Made by a program: the position numbers and the translations under genes
Shown here: piece after piece, positions 25,038-52,458 of the stretch
Layout: the number at the start of each line of letters is the position of its first letter
Position numbering within the stretch: position 1 is the stretch's first letter
Assembly: GCA_020851115.1 (NCBI GenBank)
Contig: JADZDJ010000016.1
Location: 1 to 55,843 of the forward strand
Reading direction: 5' to 3'
DNA from: Pirellulales bacterium
GTDB taxonomy: Bacteria > Planctomycetota > Planctomycetia > Pirellulales > JADZDJ01
DNA: 55,843 nt
Notes under the pieces: generated by a model
Told to the model about the DNA's origin: nothing
Seen by the model: the letters and a program-made list of their open reading frames with translations, nothing else
Databases searched by the model: none

Positions 25038-25131
25038 GGGAGCGAATGCGGCTCTGGTGACCGCCCCGGTCTTCAAAACCGGCGGAACGTCGCTCGCGAC
25101 GTTTGGTGGGTTCGATTCCCATCCGCTCCCG
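25038..25131 (+). tRNA. selC: tRNA-Sec (anticodon TCA)
   Basis: A 94-base selenocysteine tRNA. Acceptor GGGAGCGA (25038-25045) pairs with CCGCTCCC (25123-25130), all but the last pair; discriminator G25131, with no encoded CCA. The D arm is GCGG/CCGC around CTCTGGTGA. The anticodon arm is CCGGT-CTTCAAA-ACCGG with TCA at 25073-25075. A long variable arm AACGTCG-CTCG-CGACGTT (25086-25103) and a T arm GTGGG-TTCGATT-CCCAT complete it. The UCA anticodon, extended acceptor, large variable arm and 94-nt length are the defining marks of tRNA-Sec, which inserts selenocysteine at UGA with SelB and a SECIS element. The genome should therefore encode SelA, SelB and SelD elsewhere. The mismatch at pair 8 is the only oddity. 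Confidence 0.92.
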
Positions 25132-49458: not shown

Positions 49459-50850
49459 CTAACCGGTCGCCGATTCCTCCCCGGTCGCCGCAGTTTCCTC
49501 GGCAGACCCGTGTTGAGCAACTCCATTCTCCTCCACCCCATTGCTGCCAGGCAAGACCTCTTCATCGTCCGGCACGGCGCTTGCTTCCGAAGTTTCGGCC
49601 GTTTGAGCCGCCAGTTCGGCTTCCTTCCTGTCGGCCTCTGCGGTGGCGGCGTCAATTCGTTCCTGTTCGCGCTGCCGCTTGCGTTCGGCCGCGGCCGCGG
49701 CTTCGGCTTCTTCGGCCCGAGCTTCGGCTTGATCGACTATAGCCTGTACTTGTTCTTCGCTGAGATTGCCCATTGCCATCAACTGGTCAGGCTCGATGAC
49801 CGATAATTCATCGTAGGTCAAAAAGCCTTCGCCGACCAACCGCTCGGCCAGCGACGAATCGACCCCTTCCAGCTCCGAAAACCCGGCGACGGCCCGCTCG
49901 ATCTCCGAATCGAGCTCTTCGCGGGTCATAATCTCTATATCCCATCCGGAAAGCTTGCTCGCCAGTCGCACATTCTGCCCGCGACGGCCGATCGCCAGCG
50001 AAAGCTGGTCTTCACGCACCAGGACGATCGCTTTGCCGATCATCTGGCACAAAATAACTTCCTCGACCTCGGCAGGCTGCAAGGCGTTGGGAATCAGCAC
50101 CTGCAGGTCGTCGCTCCAGCGTACAATGTCGATCCGTTCGCCGCCGAGTTCATCGACGATATTTTTGATGCGATTTCCCCGTACTCCGACACATGCGCCG
50201 ACACAATCGACGCGTGAATCGCTGCTGCTCACCGCCACTTTGCTGCGGTAGCCAGGTTCGCGTGACATCGAGCGGACTTCTATCACGCCGTCGGCAATTT
50301 CGGGATTTTCTTGCTCGAACAGCCGCTGCACTAACTGCGGGCGCGTGCGGCTGAGAATTACCTTGACCCGACTGCCTTGTTTTTTTACTTCAAACACCGT
50401 CGCCCGCACGCGTTCGTTGGCATGGTGCGTTTCTCCGGGAATCTGCTCGCTGCGCGGCAGGATTGCTTCGGTGTTCCCCAACGAGACCGTCGCGGTTCCA
50501 TTCTCGTATTTCTGCACAACGCCGGGGACCATTTGGCCGACCAACTCTTGGTATTCGTTGTACAGCGCGTCGCGTTCGGCCTCGCGAATTTTCTGTATGA
50601 TCACTTGCTTTGCCGTCTGGGCCACAATGCGCCCCAGCGTTTCCTGAGCGTCGAGCGGCTGGCCGTTGTGCGTACCTGAAATGGCTCCGTTCACCCGGTC
50701 GATGTTGACGACAATATCCTGGTCCTCGCCATACTGCTTCTTGGCAGCCGACACCAGCGCCGCTTCGATTGCCTGAAAGACGATTTCCTTATCGATATTC
50801 TTATCGCGATGGATCGCATCGACGATTCGCAGGACTTCGGTGGCGTTCAT
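49459..50850 (-). CDS. nusA: Transcription termination/antitermination factor NusA
   Basis: A 463-residue NusA. The N-terminal RNA polymerase-binding domain ([24 protein letters not shown]) is followed by an S1 domain (about 135-200), KH1 and KH2 domains with [18 protein letters not shown] and [18 protein letters not shown], and a helical domain. The final 70 residues are an Ala/Glu-rich acidic tail. It heads the nusA-infB-rbfA unit; rimP, which usually precedes nusA, is not in the window. The ATG at 50850 fits. A terminated structured RNA lies 260 bases upstream on the same strand and may or may not affect this operon. Confidence 0.95.
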
Positions 50851-51110
50851 GGGGGAATTTTGAGTTGTGGGTATCTGCGTGCCAGGAGAACGCGATTTCG
50901 GTTCCGGTCAGTTGTCGGTTGTCCGTTGTTTGCCGTTGATTCCTCAATCTTTGGCAAAATTGCCCCATTCCAAAACGATGTTACAAATCCAAACAGCAAC
51001 TCCGCCCGACAGAGTTCAAACAGTCAAATTCTCGAAATACGCCTTCGCCATCGGTCTGTCGTCTCGCTTGATAGCAATCGACCCAACGGACAACCGACCA
51101 TTCCGCCAAC

Positions 51111-51138
51111 AAAAAACGGGAACGTCCTTCCGTTCCCG
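51111..51138 (-). terminator. Rho-independent terminator
   Basis: On the minus strand CGGGAACG (51131-51138) pairs perfectly with CGTTCCCG (51117-51124) around a six-base loop, followed by six T bases (51111-51116). It ends the structured RNA at about 51111-51321. Confidence 0.85.
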
Positions 51139-51321
51139 AGCCAAAGCCCCGATGGGTTCTACCGCCGGCGAAGCGATTTCGCCGGTCACGAACGCCCGGG
51201 GCGGACGGTCACCGCATTATGTCCCAAGGGAACGGGAAACTCCCGGTGGATTTCGGCCGTCCGTGCCTCACAGAACCGCACGAAACCCGTTTTCGCGACA
51301 CAACTTAGTGCATTTTTCAGC
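51111..51321 (-). ncRNA. Structured non-coding RNA of ~210 nt (6S-like candidate)
   Basis: No protein is encoded here, yet promoter and terminator bracket about 210 bases. Read on the minus strand, stems are: GTGcGGTTCT (51272-51281) with AGAACCCAT (51152-51160) as a closing helix; CCGTCCG/CGGACGG (51202-51208 with 51257-51263) with an inner CACCG/CGGTG pair (51244-51248 with 51210-51214) and small hairpins inside; and CCGGCGAA/TTCGCCGG (51165-51172 with 51178-51185). A closing stem, a large bubble with a hairpin on its 3' side and a distal arm is the general shape of 6S RNA, and the length fits. I see no conserved 6S sequence block, so the family is open. Conceivably it is instead a leader of the nusA operon ended by attenuation. 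Confidence 0.65.
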
Positions 51322-51327
51322 CAACTA

Positions 51328-51356
51328 AATCTATCGGTCTAAAGGGTGACTGTCAA
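51328..51356 (-). promoter_or_regulatory. Strong sigma70-type promoter of the structured RNA
   Basis: On the minus strand TTGACA (51351-51356), 17 bases, then TAGATT (51328-51333). The -35 is a perfect match and the spacing ideal; the -10 matches four of six. The start point would fall near 51321. It is the best promoter match found in the window. Confidence 0.7.
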
Positions 51357-51582
51357 GCGGCAAATTCGTGAGCCAAGGACGTTGCACACTTTGGGTTTTC
51401 GGAATCGTAAGCATTCTCAGCGGCTCAACAATCTGTTCGATCTACTCGGTACCAGGAGCTACAAGAGCCGATTCTTGACGACTGTGATGACACATTGACT
51501 CGATCGGTCTCACCTATTCTATGAATTCTTGGGAAGATGAGCGGAGTCGTGTGGCACTCGGAGAATGTCCACGAACAAGCGA

Positions 51583-52458
51583 TCACCACGCGATCTTCTC
51601 CGCATCAAACACCGGTCCCTCGACGCAGGTTCGTTTGTAATCCCAACTCCCATCCGACTGTATCACTTTCGCCACGCAGGTAAAGCAGATACCAATGCCG
51701 CAGGCCATCGGCGTTTCGAGAGAGACTTCGCACGAAATCGTGTAATGCCGTGCAATTTCCGCGACGGCCTCCATCATGGGTTCGGGGCCGCAGCAGACGA
51801 TTTTTCGCGTACCCAGCGGCGGTTCGTCGAGCAACATGCGTAATACGTCGGTTACGAAGCCGTGATGCCCCGACGATCCGTCGTCCGTGCTCAGTCGCAC
51901 GTCGATTCCTAACGCACGGAAATCGTCCAATCCCGCAAAAAACTCCGAGTTTCGCGCGCCGTAGCAAAACGTGATTTGCTTCGGCCGAGCGACTGTTTGC
52001 CGCCGATGGCCGTAGCGCTGCCGTCCGAGATGCTCTTTCGCCAGCGACAAGAACGGCGTCTGCCCGATGCCGCCGGCGACCATGATGAGATGCTCGGCCG
52101 CTTGCGGCGAGAAACCGTTTCCGAGCGGACCCCAAATTTCCAGGCCGACTCCAGCTCGACAGTTTGCCAGCCGCCGCGTAAGCTTTCCGGCGACTAAATA
52201 GACCACATCGAGTCCAATCGCGTCTCCAGTCGAATCTTGCACGACATCGTAGACTGCCAGCGGGCGCCCCAGCAACGGATCGTCGCAGCCCGCCAGTCGC
52301 AGCATGATAAACTGCCCCGGCACGATTTGCCGCGCGACCGACGGGCATTCGAAGCGCACTCGAAACGTGTTCCGTGCCAAAGGAACGTTTTCGACAATTT
52401 CGGCGGCCACCTGCGATGCGTTGTCGGCATAAAACGCCGCGTGCAACGGATTGCTCAT
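51583..52458 (-). CDS. pyrK: Dihydroorotate dehydrogenase electron-transfer subunit (PyrK-type)
   Basis: A 291-residue FAD/[2Fe-2S] protein of the ferredoxin-reductase-like family. The FAD motif RPLAVYDV (about 65-72), the NAD-binding GGIGQTPFLSLA and the C-terminal cluster cysteines CGIGICFTC...TC (Cys253, 258, 261, 278) match PyrK, which passes electrons from type 1B dihydroorotate dehydrogenase to NAD+ in pyrimidine synthesis. The pyrD catalytic subunit is not adjacent. The ATG at 52458 overlaps the stop of the pseudouridine synthase gene by four bases, so the two are translationally coupled. Confidence 0.88.
   Translation of the reverse strand: MSNPLHAAFYADNASQVAAEIVENVPLARNTFRVRFECPSVARQIVPGQFIMLRLAGCDDPLLGRPLAVYDVVQDSTGDAIGLDVVYLVAGKLTRRLANCRAGVGLEIWGPLGNGFSPQAAEHLIMVAGGIGQTPFLSLAKEHLGRQRYGHRRQTVARPKQITFCYGARNSEFFAGLDDFRALGIDVRLSTDDGSSGHHGFVTDVLRMLLDEPPLGTRKIVCCGPEPMMEAVAEIARHYTISCEVSLETPMACGIGICFTCVAKVIQSDGSWDYKRTCVEGPVFDAEKIAW

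Follow-up and report, generated by a model that had tools for sequence, protein, structure and literature searches.

The window, a stretch of 55,843 nucleotides from a Pirellulales bacterium, carries nusA on its minus strand, with infB and rbfA behind it. The gene upstream, pyrK, runs in the same direction as nusA. The features between pyrK and nusA, together with nusA itself, are listed here by their positions in the window.

51328–51356, minus strand: sigma-70-type promoter of the nusA leader, TTGACA-N17-TAGATT, in the same arrangement in the aligned relatives
51281–51322, minus strand: conserved 5′ element, made up of the start (GAUUAC in relatives, GGCUGA here), UAAGU (51307–51303), and AAAACGGGUUUCG (51293–51281)
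51216–51304, minus strand: long helix from the 5′ block, GUUGUGUC (51304–51297) with GACAUAAU (51223–51216), which re-forms in the related genomes G001 and G002
51139–51215, minus strand: variable leader body including the distal arm, unconserved in relatives
51111–51138, minus strand: intrinsic terminator, CGGGAACG-GAAGGA-CGTTCCCG-TTTTTT, kept in G001 and G002
50909–50929, minus strand: ACAACGG-ACAACCG-ACAACTG, a degenerate tandem repeat lying 79 to 59 nt ahead of the start of nusA
49459–50850, minus strand: nusA, the controlled gene (NusA_N, S1, and KH domains), then infB and rbfA

A sequence-only reading of this DNA had claimed a promoter, a terminator, and an RNA of about 210 nt between them without a credible reading frame, and each of these was borne out. 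TTGACA (51356–51351) and TAGATT (51333–51328) are separated by a 17-nt spacer and match the consensus at 10 of 12 positions. This is the sole promoter-like site within 50850–51583, where 0.4 would be expected, and the same scan found no second site between the terminator and nusA. The terminator has an eight-pair stem (51138–51117) followed by TTTTTT (51116–51111), and the nusA start lies 260 nt downstream of it. The list of open reading frames holds none of at least 80 amino acids on the minus strand of the leader region. In G001 and G002, the stretch that aligns with the leader also sits directly upstream of nusA. There pyrK is replaced by a gene for a secreted protein that is divergent from nusA, so nusA in these genomes cannot depend on the promoter of an upstream operon.

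The 212-nt transcript, including the terminator, has a predicted folding energy of −95.5 kcal/mol (z = −3.2 relative to shuffled sequences), and the fold keeps a z of −2.5 when the terminator is removed. The folded RNA proposed by the sequence-only reading is real; the distal arm and the closing helix, which were part of that proposal, are unconserved. In a BLAST comparison with related genomes, just two pieces of the region aligned, both in G001 and G002: one covers the promoter and the first ∼48 nt of the RNA, the other the terminator. The body is 210–232 nt long in the family, and its sequence, length, and fold differ between relatives. In an alignment of the three family sequences, GUUGUGUC/GACAUAAU is the one helix of the predicted fold that is well kept in both relatives; 86% of its cells are paired, with wobble changes and one double change. 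The outer closing helix is paired in 61% of cells and the distal arm in 47%, and the helices other than GUUGUGUC/GACAUAAU keep 44%–67%, values to which the window itself contributes one third. Three sequences on a G/U-rich strand lend the helix at 51304–51297/51223–51216 no more than modest support.

The promoter and the 5′ end belong to a pattern that recurs across the order. Upstream of nusA in the ∼110 genomes that were read, TTGACA, 17 nt, and TAnnnT are repeatedly followed by GATTAC at the presumed start; UAAGU lies ∼15 nt into the RNA and AAnGAnUUUyG 9–13 nt further on. The consensus of the element is thus GAUUAC...UAAGU...AAnGAnUUUyG within the first ∼45 nt. TTGAC, TAnnnT, and TAAGT belonged to the search pattern and owe their invariance partly to that selection; GATTA and AA...TTTyG did not. 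A sequence-only model of the element (R1) was built from 40 leaders and run over 157 Pirellulales genomes, NusA being found in 151 of them. It gave a match at E < 1e-5 in 64 of the 157, exactly one per genome. All 64 strong matches are on the nusA contig and upstream of nusA (in G149, located via the NusA reading frame). No second strong copy was found in any of the 157 genomes, and this single copy per genome rules out a dispersed motif under many genes. The other 93 genomes, whole families among them, are without a strong match. Samples of 294 phylum and 249 class genomes, each with some Pirellulales among them, yielded no convincing copy outside the order and one partial match (G527, E = 2e-4). 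Judged from these comparisons, the Pirellulales nusA operon leader is a real cis element, and the assignment of the stretch in the window to that leader is well supported.

A hairpin around UAAGU forms in many leaders. In family f7 its covariation score is 624 compared with 356 ± 80 when the 3′ sides are permuted (reached in 0 of 1000 permutations), with 161 paired cells compared with 144 ± 5. Families other than f7 gave nothing above chance in the same register, and a wider arm-swap test gave modest signals only (p = 0.003 to 0.02). With covariation confined to f7 in that register, a single order-wide helix around UAAGU is unsupported; as far as the alignments go, the sequence of the element is more conserved across the order than any one helix. 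An AUG-CAC-UAA mini-ORF over UAAGU was also considered and rejected, as it is present in the window and lost in relatives (alignment judged by eye). The element was not seen in the 16S leaders of the order. It is possibly a protein site, a DNA-level initiation or pausing signal, or an RNA switch.

In most families nusA is the first gene after the element, and the distance from the −10 box to the start codon ranges from 84 nt (L058) to ∼550 nt. In several others the element lies 1.4–2.7 kb upstream, and a MalK-type ABC ATPase gene (ABC_tran, OB_MalK) comes first with nusA next. The ATPase gene starts ∼115–150 nt past the promoter in the examples read, leaving a leader of ∼150 nt or less. Because the first gene is either nusA or the MalK-type ATPase, the element behaves as the 5′ leader of an operon and not as a free-standing RNA gene. 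This bears on the idea of a lineage-specific, trans-acting small RNA of ∼210 nt that lies upstream of nusA by chance, nusA having its own or an upstream promoter. Such an RNA would fit the discrete promoter and terminator, the stable fold, and the 260 nt that separate the terminator from the nusA start. It would not account for an element whose 64 strong copies all accompany the nusA operon, often with no terminator before nusA and with no more room than the 84 nt of L058. Nor would it fit a body that is unconserved even within the family, or the window's lack of any other promoter-like site from the terminator to nusA. We consider an independent small RNA improbable.

The sequence-only reading had preferred an abundant housekeeping RNA resembling 6S RNA, the RNA that engages RNA polymerase holoenzyme by mimicking a promoter. 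The leader resembles 6S RNA (RF00013) in its length near 200 nt, its strong promoter and terminator, and a predicted closing stem, and the rest of the genome that the window comes from yielded no 6S RNA. That absence may reflect a gap in the assembly (304 contigs) or divergence. The Rfam covariance search proposed with that reading (6S, SRP, rimP leader) found no match over the leader region. When the whole window and 40 related loci were compared with Rfam, the families that passed the gathering threshold were tRNA and tRNA-Sec alone; the lone sub-threshold match, ncS16 at E = 3, was judged to be due to chance. Of 40 Pirellulales relatives, 9 have a 6S RNA that the Rfam 6S model recognizes, and its loci have no relation to nusA. 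A second model (R2), built from those nine sequences, detects 6S RNA in four carriers of the nusA element: G018, G034, and G022 (E of 2e-38 or better) and G047 (E of 8e-16). In the window's leader region it reaches at most 3.7 bits. True 6S genes at loci separate from the leader are found in these four genomes and in G003 and G020, also element carriers. Since sequence and covariance matches are lacking, 6S RNA is encoded elsewhere in leader-carrying relatives, and the closing helix, distal arm, and body length are unconserved, the preferred reading falls, and we regard a 6S identity as very remote.

The Pirellulales 6S genes (L214–L222 and L226–L229) include several below the Rfam gathering score and share the strongly conserved blocks CUCUGCCAUGUUCGUG, GUGAGCC, and CGGAUCAC. 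Away from the nusA region, the window contains a selenocysteine tRNA gene (RF01852, 72.8 bits) at 25038–25130 on the plus strand, which suggests selenoprotein synthesis in this planctomycete.

A terminator between the element and nusA was recognized in 7 of 43 element-bearing leaders, compared with 7% of shuffled leaders. The seven are all three members of the window's family, G034 from a second family, and three others; a related terminator sequence, GTTCCCGTTTTTT, occurs in G034 and G018 of that second family. The remaining 36 leaders have no recognizable terminator, and attenuation by an intrinsic terminator therefore cannot be the general function of the element. Rather, on the leaders surveyed, terminator attenuation is a trait of some lineages and not of the element as such. 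In the window, an 8-nt sequence, CCGTTCCC, is complementary to the 5′ arm of the terminator and could form an antiterminator pairing. The candidate was rejected since the complement is present in the window only and is absent from G001, G002, and G034.

NusA is essential, and to our knowledge the setting of its level is understood in few bacteria and little RNA regulation is known in Planctomycetes. The nearest known precedent is B. subtilis, where NusA is autoregulated through NusA-stimulated termination in its 5′ leader (PMC12288461), and it is on this precedent that we propose a mechanism. We read the region as the nusA-infB-rbfA operon's 5′ leader, which probably works as a transcription attenuator with NusA as the likely effector. 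The promoter at 51356–51328 would start the operon mRNA near 51322, and the first ∼45 nt would carry the element conserved in Pirellulales (UAAGU, then AAnGAnUUUyG) in a role that we can only infer. In the window's lineage, much of the RNA polymerase would stop at the terminator (51138–51111) and release an RNA of ∼210 nt, and polymerase reading through would make nusA mRNA. The signal is likely to be the level of NusA itself, more NusA giving more termination and less nusA mRNA; we infer this effector from the B. subtilis precedent and from autoregulatory logic.

The architecture, its conservation, and the linkage to nusA are directly supported. Every one of the 64 strong matches is a cis leader beside the operon that encodes NusA, and a terminator lies between the promoter and the first gene in the window, G001, G002, and G034. 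The nusA-operon leader or attenuator, which the sequence-only reading had kept as a fallback, is what the comparison bears out: its promoter and 5′ end are always nusA linked, and in the window's family a terminator precedes nusA. By analogy, the leader and terminator together probably work as an attenuator in that lineage. Besides the many leaders without a recognizable terminator and the 93 genomes without a strong match, further points count against the attenuator. In loci with an intervening MalK-type gene, the tie between element and nusA is not unique. In addition, NusA-dependent terminators in B. subtilis tend to be weak, and the terminator in the window looks strong.

Like the B. subtilis leader, the one described here places a terminator in the 5′ leader of a NusA-encoding operon. 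It differs in that no rimP lies between leader and nusA, in the order-wide conserved element at the 5′ end of the RNA, and in that most relatives are without a terminator. NusA dependence is established in B. subtilis and would apply here by analogy, and no conserved antiterminator pairing was found among the window, G001, G002, and G034. In the E. coli metY-rimP-nusA-infB operon, nusA-infB is likewise preceded by an RNA gene, promoters, and terminators, and transcription reads through into the operon (PMC6511841). The upstream promoter and terminator layout is shared, as read-through presumably is, whereas the Pirellulales leader has no tRNA, no rimP, an unrelated sequence, and a single conserved promoter. 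We found no earlier description of a Pirellulales nusA leader element in Rfam or in open-access papers.

Many Pirellulales carry a second conserved feature closer to nusA. The motif ACAAYYYG lies there 40–85 nt ahead of the start codon, as one to four copies in tandem (e.g., ACAACTCGCACAATTCGGACAACTCGG). Of 107 nusA leaders, 32 have tandem copies (examples are L013, L022, and L037), whereas 642 control windows taken further upstream have none. A search of ten whole genomes for the two-copy pattern gave 22 matches, 17 of them at nusA. Of the five others, most are inside long reading frames and one precedes what its translated start suggests is a Clp-type ATPase gene. The copy in the window at 50929–50909 fails the strict pattern; it is a possible counterpart of the repeats in other Pirellulales. 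In four leaders of family f7 (L035, L039, L043, and L071), a GC-rich hairpin-like sequence, e.g., GCGGCGGGCGAATACGCCGCG, lies between the repeats and the nusA start.

The same sequence occurs in rRNA leaders. In three 16S leaders from the order, ACAATTTG comes directly after CTCTTTG or TCTTTG, the presumed boxA as bacterial rRNA leaders generally have it; a fourth leader has a variant in that place. Among these four, the motif after boxA reads CTCTTTGACAATTTGG or TCTTTGACAATTTGG in three and CTCTTTGGCAATTCGG in one. At sites of this kind, boxA is the target of NusB-S10 and the boxC side the presumed target of NusA (PMC6614801). The repeats may be a Nus-factor site on nusA mRNA. They share the post-boxA sequence of an rRNA nut site but differ from such a site in that no boxA core (CUCUUU) lies next to or within them, in their one to four tandem copies, and in being weak in the window.

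An alternative to the attenuator is control through two sites. Here the repeats, which precede the nusA ribosome-binding site, would be bound by NusA or a different Nus factor, with repression or antitermination of nusA as the outcome, and the 5′ element would have a separate role, e.g., as a protein site or a promoter-proximal pause. The enrichment of the repeats in nusA leaders over the control windows, their genome-wide concentration at nusA, and the match to the sequence after boxA all point this way. Set against them, the window, G001, and G002 carry at best a degenerate copy, and the boxA core is missing from the repeats. We think this two-site control unlikely, although somewhat less so than a small RNA. 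A broader proposal, which we put forward tentatively as possible but doubtful, is that the order has a previously undescribed two-part autoregulatory nusA leader, composed of the 5′ element (UAAGU...AAnGAnUUUyG) and tandem ACAAYYYG repeats that copy the boxA-proximal sequence of rRNA. If true, NusA or the Nus complex would read the same kind of signal on nusA mRNA and on rRNA, and the supply of NusA would be tied to rRNA transcription. A nusA-tied element that extends across much of a Planctomycetes order and is absent from Rfam offers a concrete site for testing NusA homeostasis, and boxA-like repeats beside nusA would allow a direct test of whether Nus-factor supply is linked to rRNA transcription.

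The MalK-type ABC ATPase gene stands between the element and nusA in L125, L126, L128, L136, L139, L143, and L144, and in those families nusA may share a transcript with an ATPase of the sugar-transporter type. Family f16 leaders (L125, L126, L136, and L143) also have a short upstream reading frame, ATGACCGGGGAAGTTGCAGGCTGA, which follows a GGGG-rich stretch and is located after the 5′ element and ahead of the MalK-type gene. The frame is identical in the leaders seen.
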